Below are positions 51,022-62,260 of a stretch of DNA of 64,000 nt, piece by piece. Location: assembly GCA_001298575.1 (NCBI GenBank), contig LJCV01000044.1:124001-188000 (forward strand). The letters are read 5' to 3'. The stretch comes from Actinobacteria bacterium OK074. GTDB lineage: Bacteria; Actinomycetota; Actinomycetes; Streptomycetales; Streptomycetaceae. The notes beneath the pieces are model-generated. The model was given only the letters and a program-made list of their open reading frames with translations, was not told where the DNA came from and searched no databases. Made by a program: the position numbers and the translations under genes. Position 1 is the first letter of the stretch; every line of letters begins with the position of its first letter.

Positions 51022-51984
51022 TCATGCGCGGACCCAGCGGTGGTAGGCGTCCGGGTCGACGTTGCTGCCGCAGATGACGGTGGCCACGTGGCGGCCGGCG
51101 AAGCGGTCGCGGTTCTCCAGGACGGCCGCGACGCCGAGGGCCGCCGAGGGTTCGACGACCAGGCCCGCGCGCTCCAGGAGCATCGGCATGCCGGTGACGA
51201 TGGACGCCTCGTGGACCAGGACGGCGTCGTCGGCGACCGTGAGCAGGTCGTCCAGTACCTCGGGGATGGGGTACCGCCCGGCGACGCCGTCGGCGATGGT
51301 GTCGGTCGAGTCGGTGGTGACGACCCGGCGCCGGTGCCAGGAGCGGGTCATCGCGGGGGCACCGTGGGGCTGCACGCAGATCACCTCGACGTCCGGCGCT
51401 AGGGTCTTCAGGACGTACCCCACGCCGGTGGCCAGCGCGCCGCCGCCCAGGGCGATCAGGACGGCGTCGAAGGCGGGCGTGCCGCTCGCCAGTTCGAGGC
51501 CGATGGTCGCCGCGCCCTCGCAGGTTTCGAGGTCGAGGCTGTCCTCGACCAGCCGGACACCGCGTTCCCGCGCGATGCTCACGGCCCGTTCGCGGGCCAA
51601 CTCGAAGTCGCCGTCGACCAGTTGGAGTTCCGCGCCCAGCGCGCGGATCCGGTCGAGCTTGGCGGCCGGCGCCTTGTGCGACGCCACGACCGTCACGTCG
51701 AGGCCCCGGCGACGGCCGGACCAGGCGAGCGCCTGGCCGAGGTTGCCCGCGCTGGCGCACACCGCGGCCGTGCGGCCCTGCCCGGCCAGCAGACCGGCGA
51801 CGAGTTCGGTGCCGCGGGCCTTGAAGCTGCGCACCGGGTTCGCCGTCTCCAGTTTGATGCTCACCGTGCAGCCGAGTTCGCGGCCCAGCGCGTCGCACGG
51901 GTACAGCGGAGTGTCCAGAAAGATCGGGTCGATGTCCCGGCGGGCCGCGCGGATCCGGGCAAGATCGAGGCGCGTGGTGACCAT
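51022..51984 (-). CDS. PLP-dependent threonine/serine dehydratase-like enzyme
   Basis: A 320-residue fold-type II PLP enzyme. The Schiff-base lysine is in PVRSFKARGTELV, and the glycine-rich phosphate-binding loop is ALGGGALATGVGYVLK. SAGNLGQALAW is the substrate carboxylate-binding loop. There is no regulatory ACT domain, so it is of the catabolic type. A threonine, serine or other beta-hydroxy amino acid is the likely substrate. ATG start at 51984. Confidence 0.88.
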   Translation of the reverse strand: MVTTRLDLARIRAARRDIDPIFLDTPLYPCDALGRELGCTVSIKLETANPVRSFKARGTELVAGLLAGQGRTAAVCASAGNLGQALAWSGRRRGLDVTVVASHKAPAAKLDRIRALGAELQLVDGDFELARERAVSIARERGVRLVEDSLDLETCEGAATIGLELASGTPAFDAVLIALGGGALATGVGYVLKTLAPDVEVICVQPHGAPAMTRSWHRRRVVTTDSTDTIADGVAGRYPIPEVLDDLLTVADDAVLVHEASIVTGMPMLLERAGLVVEPSAALGVAAVLENRDRFAGRHVATVICGSNVDPDAYHRWVRA

Positions 51985-54805: not shown

Positions 54806-56140
54806 TCACAGGGCACCCGAGCGTGCGGTAACCCCCGCCGGTACCGCCCACCACTGGTCCGGGCGCCCCACCACGGGGGCGTCCGGGCCGGTCTCCAGGA
54901 ACCGGCCGAGGCGCAGGAGGTAGGCCGCGATGCCCGCCGCGCCCTGCATCCACGCCGTGCCCGGGGGCAGCAGCGGTGGGTCCTGGCGGTGTTCCAGGAA
55001 GCGCCAGCGGGCGCCCGTCTCGTCCCTGATCGCCCGCTCGACCAGCGCGTCGCCCATCCTGCGCGCCGCCCGCACCAGGGGTTCCGCCCGTGCCGTCGGC
55101 CCGCAGTCCTGTGCCGCGTCCAGCAGGACGTCCCCGACGCCCGCCGTTCCGCAGCAGCGGCCGTCGTTGTCCCAGAAGCCGGGGCGCAGCCGTTCCGGCA
55201 GACCCGAGGTGAGGATCGAGGTCAGACAGCGGTGCCGCAGGTCGTCGACGCCGATGCCCGACACCTCCGCCACCCCCGCGTGCGCCAGCGCCGCGAACAG
55301 GTGCGAGGTGCCCGCCGGACCGTGGCACCACGTGTACGTCACCGGTTCCACCTCCCGCTTCGACGGCGGGATCGTATGCGGTACGACGAAGCCGCCGTCG
55401 GCCAACGAGCCCACGGACAGCACGTGTTGGGCCCCCTCGACGGCCGCTTCGACGAAGTCCGTGCGGTCCAGTGCCCTACCCGCCACCGCCAGTGCGGCGG
55501 CCACTCCGGCGGTGCCGTGCGAGTAGTTCGGCGCCCGCCACGGCGTGCTCGGCGCGATCCCCCAGTCCAGGCCCGCCTCCGTACGGTCCGCCGCGCGCAG
55601 CAGCGCCTCGCCGCCGGTCGTGGCGATGTCCGCCGCGTACTCGCCCTGCGCCCAGACCGCCGTCAGCACCACGCCCGCGGCGCCCATGATGATGTCGTTC
55701 AGGGGCGCGTCGGAGCCCGGTTCGAACTCGGTCGTGGTCTTCCAGCCGTCGGGGGTGGCCAGTTCGGCCAGTCGTCGCAGCGCGATGGACTCCCGGCCCG
55801 GGGCGAGGAGCTTCAGCGCCACGGCGTCGCCCGCGAGGCCGTCGTACAGCGACGGTTCCGTCCGGGACTCGGCCGCCGCCGACAGTCTGGTGACGATGCC
55901 GGTCGCCAAGGTCCGTTCCCGGGCGCTCAGTTCGCGGTACTGGGCGATCTCCGCGAGCACCGGGGCCAGGCCCGCGATCCCCGCGTACAGCGTGTCGCGG
56001 TCCTGCGCGGGTACCGCGTCCCGGCCGCCGTCCTCCGGCACCGTCTCGGGCAGCCAGGGCCCCTCGTCCTCGCGCACCTGGTCCAGTACCCACGACCAGG
56101 CGGCCTCGCCCGGTTCCCGATACACCTCGCTCACCACCAT
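54806..56140 (-). CDS. LanC-like cyclase family protein with a Cys-Cys-Gly zinc motif
   Basis: A 444-residue LanC-like alpha/alpha-barrel protein. Zinc-site motifs are WCHGPAG (Cys near 272) and RCCGTAG (Cys near 329-330). Canonical LanC/LanCL proteins have Cys, Cys-His; here the third ligand position is Cys, as in ProcM-type synthetases. NisC-type His near the YSHGTAGV segment (about 208) is present. No lanthipeptide precursor, LanB/LanM or transporter is nearby. It lies 28 bp behind a cysteine-synthase-family gene, on the same strand. ATG/GTG start near 56140. Confidence 0.88.
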   Translation of the reverse strand: MVVSEVYREPGEAAWSWVLDQVREDEGPWLPETVPEDGGRDAVPAQDRDTLYAGIAGLAPVLAEIAQYRELSARERTLATGIVTRLSAAAESRTEPSLYDGLAGDAVALKLLAPGRESIALRRLAELATPDGWKTTTEFEPGSDAPLNDIIMGAAGVVLTAVWAQGEYAADIATTGGEALLRAADRTEAGLDWGIAPSTPWRAPNYSHGTAGVAAALAVAGRALDRTDFVEAAVEGAQHVLSVGSLADGGFVVPHTIPPSKREVEPVTYTWCHGPAGTSHLFAALAHAGVAEVSGIGVDDLRHRCLTSILTSGLPERLRPGFWDNDGRCCGTAGVGDVLLDAAQDCGPTARAEPLVRAARRMGDALVERAIRDETGARWRFLEHRQDPPLLPPGTAWMQGAAGIAAYLLRLGRFLETGPDAPVVGRPDQWWAVPAGVTARSGAL

Positions 56141-56168
56141 CCGGTCACGCTAACGTGATCGGCGGGCG

Positions 56169-57293
56169 TCAGACAGGCCAGCCCCCGCCGCCCAGGAACG
56201 TCTCGATCGCCTCCGCGTACGGCGCGATGTCGAGCCCCTGCCCGGCGAGCCAGCCGTCGGCGTAGTACTTGTCCAGGTACCGGTCCCCCGGGTCGCACAG
56301 CAGGGTCACCACGCTCCCCCGCTCCCCGGCCGCCGCCATCTCCGCGATGATCTTCAGGGCGCTCCACAGGCCCGTACCGGTCGAGCCGCCCGCGCGGCGG
56401 CCGATGACCGATTCCAGGGCGCGGACGGCGGCGACGCTCGCCGCGTCGGGGACCTTCATCATGCGGTCGACGGCGCCGGGGACGAAGCTCGGTTCCATGC
56501 GGGGCCGTCCGATGCCCTCGATGCGGGAGCCGCTCTCGCAGGTGACGCCGGGGTCGCCGGTCGTCCAGCCCTCGAAGAAACAGGAGTTCTCCGGGTCGGC
56601 GACGCACACGCGCGTGTCGAACTGCATGTAGTGCACATAGCGCGCGATCGTCGCCGAGGTGCCGCCGGTGCCGGCCGTGGCGACGATCCACGCGGGCTCG
56701 GGGAAGCGCTCCAACTCCAGCTGGCGGAAGATCGATTCGGCGATGTTGTTGTTGCCGCGCCAGTCCGTGGCCCGTTCCGCGTAGGTGAACTGGTCCATGT
56801 AGTGGCCGCCGGTCTCCACCGCGAGGGCGGCCGACTCCTCGTACATCTTGCGCGAGTCGTCCACGAAGTGGCACTGGCCGCCGTGGAACTCGATCAGGCG
56901 GATCTTCTCGGCGCTGGTCGTGCGCGGCATGACCGCGATGAAGGGCACGCCGATCAGCTTCGCGAAGTACGCCTCCGAGACGGCCGTGGAACCGCTGGAC
57001 GCCTCGATCACCGGGCGGCCGGGGCGGATCCAGCCGTTGCACAGGCCGTACAGGAAGAGGGAGCGTGCCAGACGGTGCTTGAGGCTGCCGGTGGGGTGGG
57101 TGGACTCGTCCTTCAGGTAGAGGTCGATGCCCCACGCCTCGGGCAGCGGGAAGCGCAGCAGATGGGTGTCGGCGGAACGGTTGGCGTCGGCCTGGACCTT
57201 GCGGACGGCCTCCTTGAGCCAACCTCGGTACTCCGGGTCGGTGTGGTCGACGTCAAGGGTCACGCCGGGGCGCATCGTCGGGGTGGTGCTCAC
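56169..57293 (-). CDS. PLP-dependent cysteine-synthase-family enzyme
   Basis: A 374-residue fold-type II PLP enzyme of the OASS/CBS-like class. The Schiff-base lysine is in [15 protein letters not shown], the substrate loop is [19 protein letters not shown] and the phosphate loop [13 protein letters not shown]. It is larger than CysK (about 310) and similar in size to actinobacterial Cds1-type cysteine desulfhydrases, which make H2S from cysteine; a synthase role is also possible. GTG start at 57293 after AAGGAG. It is coupled by proximity to the LanC-like gene downstream. Confidence 0.87.
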
Positions 57294-57716: not shown

Positions 57717-58040
57717 ATGGCGGAACCGGAGTTCAATGCCACGGGCGTGCGGATCGGCAAGCGGCTGCGTTCGCTGACCCGGGCCGGTCAGGTCCGCATC
57801 AGCGACGGCAGGCTGCGGCTGCTGACCAGTTACGGCAGCGAGATCGACAGCGCCCCCGTGCAGGCGGTGCGCGCCTCCAAGCCCTGGTTCGCCCCGGAGG
57901 ACCGGGCCCTGGCGGACGTGAACGGCACCCGCTACACCCTCACCCTCGGCGAGCCCGACCCCGCCCCCGGCAAGCCGGGACCGCCCTCGGCCCGGCGGTT
58001 CATCGAAGCGGTGCGGCGGGCGGCCGGAGGCGAGCGCTGA
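57717..58040 (+). CDS. Small conserved hypothetical protein
   Basis: A 107-residue soluble protein ([40 protein letters not shown]) with a beta-rich middle ([17 protein letters not shown]) and a basic C-terminal helix ([14 protein letters not shown]). No family is recognised. The ATG at 57717 has GAGGGGCGGG about 6 nt upstream, and its codon use is typical. It may be part of a widespread Streptomyces family. Confidence 0.65.
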
Positions 58041-58345: not shown

Positions 58346-58882
58346 GTGGTCAGCCAGCCCAACAGGCATTGCACGGTGGAGCTCCAGGCCCTGCCGGCGC
58401 GGATCGGCCAGGTCCGCAGAATCGTATCGGCGCAGTTGCGCTACTGGCGTCTCGATCCCCTGATAGATCCGGCCTCGCTCGGCGTGACGGAGCTGTTGGC
58501 GAACGTCCACCGGCATGCCGGGGCCGACAAGACCTGCACGGTGGAGATGGAAGTGCTCCTCGGCCGGCTCACGGTCTCGGTGCACGACCACGACCCCCGG
58601 CTGCCCGAGGTGCGCGACCCGGATCCGGTGGCCGCGTCGCTGGCCACCTGCGGCCGGGGCCTGGCGCTGGTGGCCGCGGTCAGCGAGAGCTGGGGCGCGC
58701 GGCCGGAGGGCGAGTCGGGGAAGGTCGTGTGGTTCACGATGCCCGCCCCGCAGCCGGTGGCGCCGCGGCCGGTGCGTCCGCCGTACGAGGACGTGGGGCG
58801 GCCGACGGCCACCCGGCGGTTCACGACGGCCGAGACGCACCGCGCCGAACGCGCCCCCGCGCGGTCCGCGGTCGTGGGCTGA
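58346..58882 (+). CDS. Anti-sigma-type ATP-binding protein (HATPase_c)
   Basis: A 178-residue GHKL-fold protein. N-box SLGVTELLANVHRHAGADK (about residues 45-62) and G2-like CGRGLALVAAVSESWG are seen, without a histidine phospho-acceptor domain. Such proteins are RsbW/SpoIIAB-like anti-sigma factors or serine kinases and are numerous in Streptomyces. GTG start at 58346 with GGGGAG upstream. The C-terminal 45 residues are Pro/Arg-rich. No sigma factor or anti-anti-sigma gene is adjacent. Confidence 0.87.
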   Translation: MVSQPNRHCTVELQALPARIGQVRRIVSAQLRYWRLDPLIDPASLGVTELLANVHRHAGADKTCTVEMEVLLGRLTVSVHDHDPRLPEVRDPDPVAASLATCGRGLALVAAVSESWGARPEGESGKVVWFTMPAPQPVAPRPVRPPYEDVGRPTATRRFTTAETHRAERAPARSAVVG

Positions 58883-60724: not shown

Positions 60725-62260
60725 TCACCCGTGGGTGTCCACGGCGATGTCCACCGAGGGCCGGAGTTTCGCCGCCGCCGACAGGGCCTCGTGCACCGGG
60801 TGCGCGGTGAACGCCCCGATCAGGGCCGCGTCGGCGGGGTCCGTCGCCGCCGGGTAGGCGATCTGCTCGTAGGCCGCCTGGAAGCGCGGGCCCCAACGGC
60901 GGGCGCCCAGCCGGGCGGTGCGGGAGCAGTTGTCGACCATGAAGGCGACGTCACGGGCGTGCATGTACGGCAGCAGGGAGTCGACGGCCTCGATCACCGA
61001 CTCGTTGACGATCTCCGACCAGGCGTGGCCGCGCTCGGCGAACTCGTCGACCTGCGCGGTCATCGTCGCGACGAACACCCCGGCGGTGAACGGGTCGACG
61101 GCGAGGGCCCGTTGGGGGCGCCGGGCGTGCACCCGCGCGCTGAACGCCCACATCGGGGAGGCGCCGACCGGGCTCATCGGCCGTGCGCCGAGCCGCCGTT
61201 CGGCGAGGATCACGCTGCGCAGCTCGGTGCCGTCGGCGACCTCGTCGTAGATCTCGGCGACGATCTCGCGGGCCGGACCGTACGTGGCCGTGTACGCGCG
61301 GTCGAAGACGTCGCGTCCGGCCGGGTCCAACTCCTCGCGCACGGCGAGGAGTCCGGAGTGCGAGATGGTGCGGGCGATCGGTCCGGTGACGTTCTCGCAG
61401 GACCGCTCGTACGCGGTCACCTCGTCGTCGCCTTCGAGACGGAAGCGGGTGAACAGGCTCTCGACGATGCCGTGGACGGCGCCGAGCAGGATCGCGCGTT
61501 CGCCGACGATGTCGGAGTGGTACTCGCCGTCGAGGGTGGTGCGGAAGGTGTACGGCGAGCCGAGCGCCACCGACCAGGCGAGCGCGCGGTCGGTGGCGGT
61601 GCCGTCGGGGTCGGCGTGCACGGCGAAACTGCTGTTGATTCCGGCCCCGTTGACCTCCGCGCCCTGCTCGTACAGGCGCCGCACCGAGTCGCCCATGCCC
61701 TTGGGGCACACCGCGATCACGGCGTGGCCGGCCGGGAACTCCCCGCCGGTTTCCCGCAGATGGCCGAGGAGGAAGCCGTGCGAGAGCCCGATGGTCGCGC
61801 CCGGCCTGAGCGCGGCGAAGATCTCGCGGTGGTGGGCGGCCAGGGCGGCGTCGGCGATCAGCAGGATCACCAGGTCGCCGGCGGCGGTCACGGAGAGCAA
61901 GTCGCCCAGGGTGCCGTCCTGTTCGGTGAAGCCGTGTGCGCGGGCGTCGGCCGCCGAGGCGGAGCCCGGCCGCAGTCCGACGGCGACCGTGATGCCGGTG
62001 CCGGCCAGGGAGTCGCGCAGGTTGCGGGCCTGGGCTCGGCCCTGCGGACCCCAGCCGAGGACGCCGATGCGGCGCACGCCCGCGAGGGCCTTCGGGAGCA
62101 GCGGGAAGAGATGCCGGCCGCCGCGCAGGATCGTCTCGGTGCCGCCGGGGACGTCCATGGTGTCGAGCGGGAAGACGGCCGAGGTGTAGGTCGGGTTCGG
62201 GGCCGCCGCCGTCGTCGTCGGGTTCGGGGCGGCCGTCGTCGCGGAGTGTGAGGAGGTCAT
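60725..62260 (-). CDS. ilvC: Class II (chloroplast-like) ketol-acid reductoisomerase
   Basis: A 511-residue enzyme that converts acetolactate/acetohydroxybutyrate to dihydroxy acids in branched-chain amino acid synthesis. The NADPH site is GVLGWGPQGRAQARNLRDSL (residues 66-85), with Arg97 in GLRPGS. Metal and substrate residues: Lys187 (CPKGMG), Asp250 and Glu254 (SDIVGE), Glu420 and Glu424 (NESVIEAVDSL). Long stretches resemble plant KARI as I recall it (LSHGFLLGHL, VNGAGINSSFAVH, FMVDNCSRTARLG). Streptomyces normally use a shorter (about 330-residue) class I IlvC. The ATG at 62260 follows a -10 directly and is probably leaderless. Confidence 0.92.
   Translation of the reverse strand: MTSSHSATTAAPNPTTTAAAPNPTYTSAVFPLDTMDVPGGTETILRGGRHLFPLLPKALAGVRRIGVLGWGPQGRAQARNLRDSLAGTGITVAVGLRPGSASAADARAHGFTEQDGTLGDLLSVTAAGDLVILLIADAALAAHHREIFAALRPGATIGLSHGFLLGHLRETGGEFPAGHAVIAVCPKGMGDSVRRLYEQGAEVNGAGINSSFAVHADPDGTATDRALAWSVALGSPYTFRTTLDGEYHSDIVGERAILLGAVHGIVESLFTRFRLEGDDEVTAYERSCENVTGPIARTISHSGLLAVREELDPAGRDVFDRAYTATYGPAREIVAEIYDEVADGTELRSVILAERRLGARPMSPVGASPMWAFSARVHARRPQRALAVDPFTAGVFVATMTAQVDEFAERGHAWSEIVNESVIEAVDSLLPYMHARDVAFMVDNCSRTARLGARRWGPRFQAAYEQIAYPAATDPADAALIGAFTAHPVHEALSAAAKLRPSVDIAVDTHG

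Follow-up and report, generated by a model that had tools for sequence, protein, structure and literature searches.

A stand-alone, horizontally mobile LanC-like gene of Actinomycetota found beside cds1

Introduction

LanC enzymes are known as the cyclases of bacterial lanthipeptide clusters and, in animals, as enzymes that add glutathione, and insertion sequences (IS) that carry passenger genes go by the term 'transporter IS'. Here we describe a LanC-like gene in a 64,000-nucleotide stretch of the genome of Actinobacteria bacterium OK074 (contig LJCV01000044.1, positions 124,001 to 188,000; hereafter the window), where it lies 28 bp from a gene for an enzyme of a pyridoxal phosphate (PLP) family. 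A first-pass annotation of the window had read the two genes as an operon. We find that the LanC-like protein belongs to a stand-alone family in Actinomycetota, that its gene is horizontally mobile as a single-gene unit, and that an IS5-family element carries it as a passenger at six Streptomyces loci.

Several described systems come close to this one. The eukaryotic proteins LanCL1 and LanCL2, which join glutathione to dehydroalanine (Dha) and dehydrobutyrine (Dhb), likewise have a stand-alone LanC fold (Z 31-33) and no precursor or dehydratase partner, and their identity to the bacterial protein in the structural alignment is 14-16%. They differ from it in that the bacterial protein has CCG rather than CHG and apparently lacks some of the glutathione-binding residues, that its gene is horizontally mobile and that its reaction is a predicted one. 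The cyclase domains of LanL and LanM enzymes (CuvL, 8car/8cav; LicM2; CylM) provide the closest curated models, the profile matches (CuvL and LicM2) and the closest fold (CuvL), but the protein described here has no kinase, lyase or dehydratase domain and no precursor, and it lies outside a lanthipeptide cluster. In IS with passenger genes the likeness lies in the position of the LanC gene at one locus, with an IS5-family transposase on one side and the right terminal repeat on the other; the differences are that the cargo is a LanC-like enzyme, that mobility is read from sequence and that the window copy is outside such an element. The ProcM-type (type IIa) cyclases also have three cysteines at the ligand positions (D-CCC; excerpt of PMC11251773), whereas the present protein is not fused to a LanM dehydratase, comes from Actinomycetota rather than Cyanobacteria and was not seen with a precursor array. 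For LanCL1, excerpts of PMC9934072 describe His219 as protonating the enolate and His277 as binding the enolate oxygen, with a histidine at the latter place in ProcM and HalM2 as well; they list His274, Lys317, His323, Arg364 and others as recognising glutathione, and in one passage word the zinc ligands as two histidines and one cysteine.

Results and discussion

The LanC-like gene (54806..56140, minus strand) has an ATG start and encodes a stand-alone protein of 444 amino acids, which matches Pfam LANC_like at 70.6 bits against a cut-off of 23.2 and contains both of the motifs, WCHG and RCCG, that the first-pass annotation had noted. The AlphaFold2 model of the protein had a pLDDT (predicted local distance difference test) of 93.5. 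In a structural comparison with VIA-align, the cyclase domain of CuvL gave the highest Z score (35.0; 3.3 A over 351 residues), followed by LanCL2 (33.4) and GCR2 (33.1), with MadC at 31.9, LanCL1 at 31.3 and NisC at 30.9. LanC-type structures filled ranks 1-20, and mannosidases and epimerases came after them with Z scores of 21.7 and less. On this model, the protein is a member of the LanC/LanC-like alpha/alpha toroid fold family. A single-sequence search of solved structures returned nothing, while a profile search returned three matches, CuvL and LicM2 among them.

The residues expected of a LanC enzyme are conserved across the family members aligned. Asp149, His208, W271-C272-H273-G274, R328-C329-C330-G331 and the block PGFWDNDGRCCGT are invariant in all 64 sequences of alignment A2, which holds the window protein and those of 63 of the 80 named loci described below and was partly chosen by the patterns CCGTAGVG and PGFWDND. 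Left out of A2 were L130, L138, L141 and L143 (where the chosen start gave an internal stop), L107 (partial) and L122 (over-extended start), as well as eleven Streptomyces copies (L078, L080, L082, L084, L085, L090, L096, L097, L099, L100 and L123). WCHG and RCCG are also kept in 22/22 rows of alignment A1, whose sequences were found by whole-protein search, and in a sister family of 35-41% identity all 13 loci inspected have CCG, 12 of them together with WCHG and the remaining one with WCNG. We take Asp149 (codon 55694..55696, minus strand) to be the probable counterpart of NisC Asp141. Likewise, Cys272 (codons of Cys272 and His273, 55322..55327, minus strand) and the pair Cys329-Cys330 (55151..55156, minus strand), which stands in CCG instead of CHG, presumably occupy the first, second and third zinc-ligand positions of LanC-type enzymes; the three candidate zinc-binding cysteines of the first-pass annotation are thus invariant, zinc binding itself being a prediction. 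The catalytic set consists of a histidine acid (His208; codon 55517..55519, minus strand), an enolate-stabilising histidine (His273) and the three cysteines. By motif, His208 and His273 correspond to the catalytic acid His219 and to His277 of LanCL1 (excerpts of PMC9934072).

The mobility of the gene is evident from seven LanC genes whose DNA is 98.2-99.5% identical in differing contexts (L040, L077, L080, L082, L084, L123 and the plasmid copy L198). Pairwise alignments of the first six of these loci, without L198, end 114-138 bp upstream of LanC in 11 of 15 pairs and 1-31 bp downstream of it in all 15. At L040, L077, L080, L082, L084 and L198, the LanC gene is enclosed by a pair of inverted terminal repeats matching each other at 20 of 22 positions; L123 has the right end of the element alone. 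The repeats are flanked by CTA and TAG in four loci, and by CCA or GCA and TAG at L080 and L084. The repeats also enclose a transposase gene of the IS4/IS5 family (Pfam DUF4096 and DDE_Tnp_1 in 4/4 tested), which lies upstream of LanC; in S. longwoodensis, the element measures 2426 bp (L082:4926-7351), with LanC between the transposase and the right terminal repeat. The transposase is whole at L080 and L082, altered mid-gene at L077, shortened at L084 and largely deleted at L040, and at L198, on a plasmid of S. chartreusis, it is interrupted and an IS110 gene lies inside the element. Every one of the seven LanC genes is intact and retains the three motifs, whereas four of the six transposases have undergone the changes just listed, and we count the intact LanC genes beside decayed transposases as a sign of selection.

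Comparison with plasmid records gave 52 matches to the element, of which a single one spans 80% or more of its length; the majority of the rest align to the transposase part, with 80-90% identity, and LanC is therefore most simply regarded as an acquired passenger. Streptomyces plasmids commonly carry related IS copies that lack LanC. A LanC relative is present in five plasmid records (two at about 81% and three below 60%), and such genes are already named 'lanthionine synthetase LanC family protein' in plasmid records. A phage origin was rejected, since none of 50,697 phage records contains a LanC relative. Among three genomes with the IS5 form (comparisons of G206, G062 and G318), the synonymous divergence (dS) of LanC was 0.006, 0.023 and 0.029 and that of Cds1, the PLP-family neighbour in the window, 0.211, 0.192 and 0.247; a LanC dS 8-35 times lower than that of Cds1 indicates recent horizontal spread. 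At a further locus, L083 (the same as L045), a 140-bp inverted pair starting with CTAG flanks LanC at about -221 and +602, which suggests a second, different insertion-sequence context. Single inverted pairs at L081, L119 and L121 resemble chance or repeated genes.

A LanC orthologue (at least 75% identity) is present in 21 of 392 same-genus genomes, including the window's own, and a further 54 hold merely a relative of 35-49% identity; four candidates were scored per genome, a limit that may have lowered the count of the distant group. In the class as a whole, a LanC profile gave matches (E 1e-60 or better) in 17 of 296 drawn genomes, some of these matches being to the distant sister family, and the distribution is thus patchy. 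A scan of named genomes with the two patterns given above found 141 relatives, of which 80 were kept for analysis. They span Streptomyces, Micromonosporaceae, Sphaerisporangium, Nocardioides, Kribbella, Lentzea, Actinophytocola and an Acidimicrobiaceae metagenome-assembled genome, among others, and in a tree of 74 of the 80 loci and the window the closest proteins to the window copy come from Streptomyces, in line with the inferred placing of the window's genome in that genus.

The neighbourhoods of LanC were compared at 22 orthologue loci (8 kb to either side where the contig allows; one without a LanC call) and at the 80 named loci, two sets that overlap because many of L040-L059 are the same places as L073-L103. 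Genes were called with a custom GC-frame caller rather than standard software, and it missed LanC at L057. The neighbourhoods of the orthologues are mostly unrelated or unique. No partner gene is conserved over the whole family in the 22 and 80 loci, and no precursor was seen travelling with LanC among open reading frames of 50 amino acids and longer, the sizes searched. Some local associations were observed. In Nocardioides, two neighbour clusters stand beside LanC, each in 15 loci (among L127-L149), and at L128 they are hydantoinase A and B by Pfam. The sister family, which has CCG, is convergent with an XdhC-like gene and a xanthine-dehydrogenase-type cluster in five of 11 loci inspected (L064, L066, L070, L071 and L072; Pfam on L064 only).

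The feature that does recur upstream of LanC is a short promoter-like box. In the window, the 28-bp gap before the gene (56141..56168, minus strand) contains the -10 box TAGCGT (56147..56152, minus strand), which ends 6 nt before the LanC start codon. A TANNNT box ending exactly at this distance is found at 20 of the 22 orthologue loci, window included, despite their differing neighbours, the two exceptions being L060, where the spacing is 7 nt, and L058, which has no box; the strict box is present in 49 of the 80 named loci. A positional profile of 42 loci gave 2.3-2.5 bits at -12, -11 and -7 and at most 0.25 bits at each position upstream of -14, although, since these loci were preselected for the box, the profile speaks for the spacing and for the absence of further conserved positions but does not show how frequent the box is. 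When a single rule was applied to all called genes, the box occurred at this spacing in 43/81 LanC genes versus 47/756 neighbouring genes, and with the first base left free in 56/81 versus 125/756. The 81 LanC genes in this control came from 76 loci, five of which gave split calls and were counted double; L094, L107, L117 and L122 were left out, and genes starting within 80 bases of the locus end were dropped. A sigma-R type promoter was rejected, as the -10 box alone stands out from the profile and no -35 element is conserved. For S. coelicolor, -10 motifs of the form TANNNT have been reported, as has a leaderless share of about 21% among its mRNAs (excerpt of PMC4895711). The LanC-like gene probably fires from its own leaderless promoter, with transcription predicted to begin at the start codon.

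Taken together, the computed features of the family, namely its fold, its catalytic set, the lack of a conserved partner, the conserved -10 box, the mobility of the gene and its IS5 passenger state in six loci, lead us on balance to favour a self-sufficient, horizontally mobile stand-alone LanC enzyme that would add a cellular thiol to dehydroamino acids. Self-sufficiency is to be expected of a gene that moves unaccompanied and functions in many surroundings, and the thiol addition that the first-pass annotation had proposed is retained as the likely chemistry of a stand-alone LanC protein with three cysteines. In the proposed mechanism, zinc held by Cys272, Cys329 and Cys330 would activate the thiol, which would add to Dha or Dhb residues, while His273 would stabilise the resulting enolate and His208 would protonate it. 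As neither a precursor nor a dehydratase gene moves with LanC, the reaction would most likely be intermolecular, joining a cellular thiol (in an actinomycete, mycothiol or cysteine) to the dehydroamino acids of proteins or foreign peptides, in the manner of the mammalian LanCLs, which use glutathione. The lack of a link between LanC and the LanB or LanM dehydratases across genomes (counts given below) also favours this reading. Mycothiol is the major low-molecular-weight thiol of actinomycetes (excerpt of PMC5430705).

A number of observations weigh against this reading. The position of LanCL1 His323 appears to be Cys330 here, so that a glutathione-binding residue is apparently not kept; counting from the cysteines, His274 would fall at position 270, where T, G, N or S is found, and Lys317 at Asp324. 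The seeming absence of these residues (excerpts of PMC9934072) suggests that the thiol differs or that no free thiol is used; considered together with the prevalence of mycothiol, it would make mycothiol or cysteine the likelier donor. The promoter-like box is not universal, given that 26 of the 31 named loci missing its strict form are L127-L152, mostly of the Nocardioides/Kribbella branch, and the fixed LanC neighbourhoods of Nocardioides, Kribbella and small Streptomyces groups indicate that the gene is not mobile everywhere. The IS5-borne form occurs in only three of the 392 same-genus genomes. Neither the window copy nor L061 shows the 12-base end pattern of the terminal repeats with up to one mismatch allowed, and an empty site for the insertion in the window was not found among the Cds1 loci compared. 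Finally, dehydrated peptides made by class III and IV synthetases, which lie beyond the LanB and LanM survey given below, could feed a trans-acting cyclase.

A more specific, and tentative, form of the same idea is a bacterial LANCL-like detoxification, in which the gene would be a mobile one-gene resistance or repair module that adds mycothiol or another thiol to Dha and Dhb. We regard it as possible rather than probable. Its targets would be damaged proteins or peptides of foreign origin (thiopeptides and lanthipeptides, for example), and a gene in need of no partner could thereby have become the cargo of IS5-family elements and plasmids, roaming among Streptomyces.

It is unlikely, in our view, that the protein is instead a trans-acting lanthipeptide cyclase that closes rings in dehydrated peptides from clusters elsewhere, with a relaxed specificity like that of ProcM-type enzymes. 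Such a role would agree with its best NCBIfam matches, which are to LanL and LanM over their cyclase ends, with the CuvL cyclase domain as the closest solved fold, with the giving of the D-CCC label to the prochlorosin-like type IIa (excerpt of PMC11251773), and with the two LanBs in the 10.67-Mb genome from which the window derives. However, these LanBs are on contigs C30 and C281 of the assembly, each with a LANC_like protein of its own on the same contig. The genome has three other LANC_like matches (on C30, C281 and C13) and no PF13575 match, and the window's contig, labelled C35, carries no LanB (PF04738), LanM dehydratase (PF13575) or second LANC_like protein, in agreement with the earlier remark that no dehydratase is near the gene. 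Across genomes, LanM (PF13575) was found in 5/21 LanC-positive versus 6/20 LanC-negative genomes and LanB (PF04738) over the cut-off in 11/21 versus 13/20, and eight of the 21 LanC-positive genomes had neither over the cut-off. The lack of a precursor travelling with the gene, among reading frames of 50 amino acids and longer, also speaks against a cyclase acting in trans. That the gene is part of a lanthipeptide cluster was rejected for a search covering LanB, LanM and reading frames of that size, given the lack of a family-wide partner, the lack of LanB/LanM enrichment and the lack of either on the window's contig.

A non-LanC activity on the alpha/alpha toroid, or a non-catalytic regulatory or binding function, appears improbable. 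Glycosidases and sugar epimerases do have the same toroid (Z about 18-22), and LANCL proteins have been proposed to be abscisic-acid receptors, but the LanC catalytic set is invariant in the 64 aligned sequences and LanC-type structures rank above all others.

The gene on the 5' side of LanC in the window (56169..57293, minus strand; 374 amino acids, GTG start with AGGAG upstream) encodes the PLP-family enzyme, with a Pfam PALP match of 172.7 bits against a cut-off of 35. The first-pass annotation had called it a cysteine-synthase-family enzyme; a gene of this PLP family is indeed present, but Cds1-type cysteine desulfhydrase is the better name. Its best curated model is NF052478 (L-cysteine desulfhydrase Cds1; NCBIfam), matched over the full length at 597.3 bits, 2.7 bits short of the curated cut-off of 600, whereas the next-best model, a cysteine synthase, gave 144.9 bits. 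As NF052478 is far closer than any other model, we consider the enzyme a Cds1 homologue and have rejected the name 'cysteine synthase'. Cds1 (Rv3684) converts cysteine to H2S and pyruvate (excerpt of PMC8389258); the window enzyme resembles it in its full-length match to the model, and differs in falling just under the cut-off and in being a mere genomic neighbour of the LanC-like gene.

Cds1 is near-universal in the genus (95/101 same-genus genomes), and its surroundings were compared at 45 loci, own locus included, made up of the best 30 of the genus Cds1 survey and 20 from LanC-orthologue genomes, which overlap. On its 5' side, a small gene of 107 amino acids without a Pfam match (57717..58040, plus strand) is kept at 43 of these loci and an ATPase-domain gene (HATPase_c_2 by Pfam; 58346..58882, plus strand) at 44. 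LanC stands beside Cds1 solely at the window's own locus, and none of the other Cds1 loci compared has a match to the 3.5 kb that follow Cds1 in the window. Conversely, at the 20 other same-genus loci with a LanC orthologue, Cds1 was found neither within 1.5 kb by a DNA-level search nor among the genes called up to 8 kb away, as far as the contigs reach, and it was absent within 6 kb, or to the contig end, of LanC in all 80 named relatives across Actinomycetota. In 19 of the 20 other LanC-positive genomes Cds1 is located elsewhere, the minimum distance on a shared contig being about 145 kb (G094).

The first-pass annotation had correctly placed the two genes on the same strand, 28 bp apart, and had proposed a check of the pair across many actinobacterial genomes; the comparisons above are that check, and the pair is not conserved. 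Its reading of a functional two-gene operon in one thiol or H2S pathway, to which the shared strand, the narrow gap and the aminoacrylate/dehydroalanine unit common to both chemistries had lent appeal, was rejected as very improbable in view of adjacency in 0/20 other same-genus and 0/80 named loci, the -10 box in the gap, and the presence of Cds1 in 95/101 but LanC in 21/392 genomes of the genus. The pairing is best explained as an accident of insertion in this genome, the window copy of LanC having presumably arrived behind a resident cds1. Elsewhere in the window, a second PLP-fold (PALP) enzyme is encoded about 2.8 kb beyond the LanC-like gene (51022-51984, minus strand), and a ketol-acid reductoisomerase-type protein of 511 amino acids with KARI_N and KARI_C domains at 60725-62260 (minus strand).

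Conclusion

What appears new is the combination of a stand-alone LanC-like protein, three cysteines, a leaderless-type -10 box, single-gene mobility and an IS5 passenger state; in the open-licence literature we found no report of a LanC-like gene as an insertion-sequence passenger or of a bacterial LanC enzyme using mycothiol. The case also illustrates that a tidy gene pair with a 28-bp gap can be accidental, with a promoter-like box concealed in the gap. A stand-alone LanC gene that probably has its own promoter and is carried horizontally and by insertion sequences has to earn its place in many different genetic settings, and a bacterial pathway for the detoxification or repair of dehydroamino acids thus becomes directly testable in Streptomyces.

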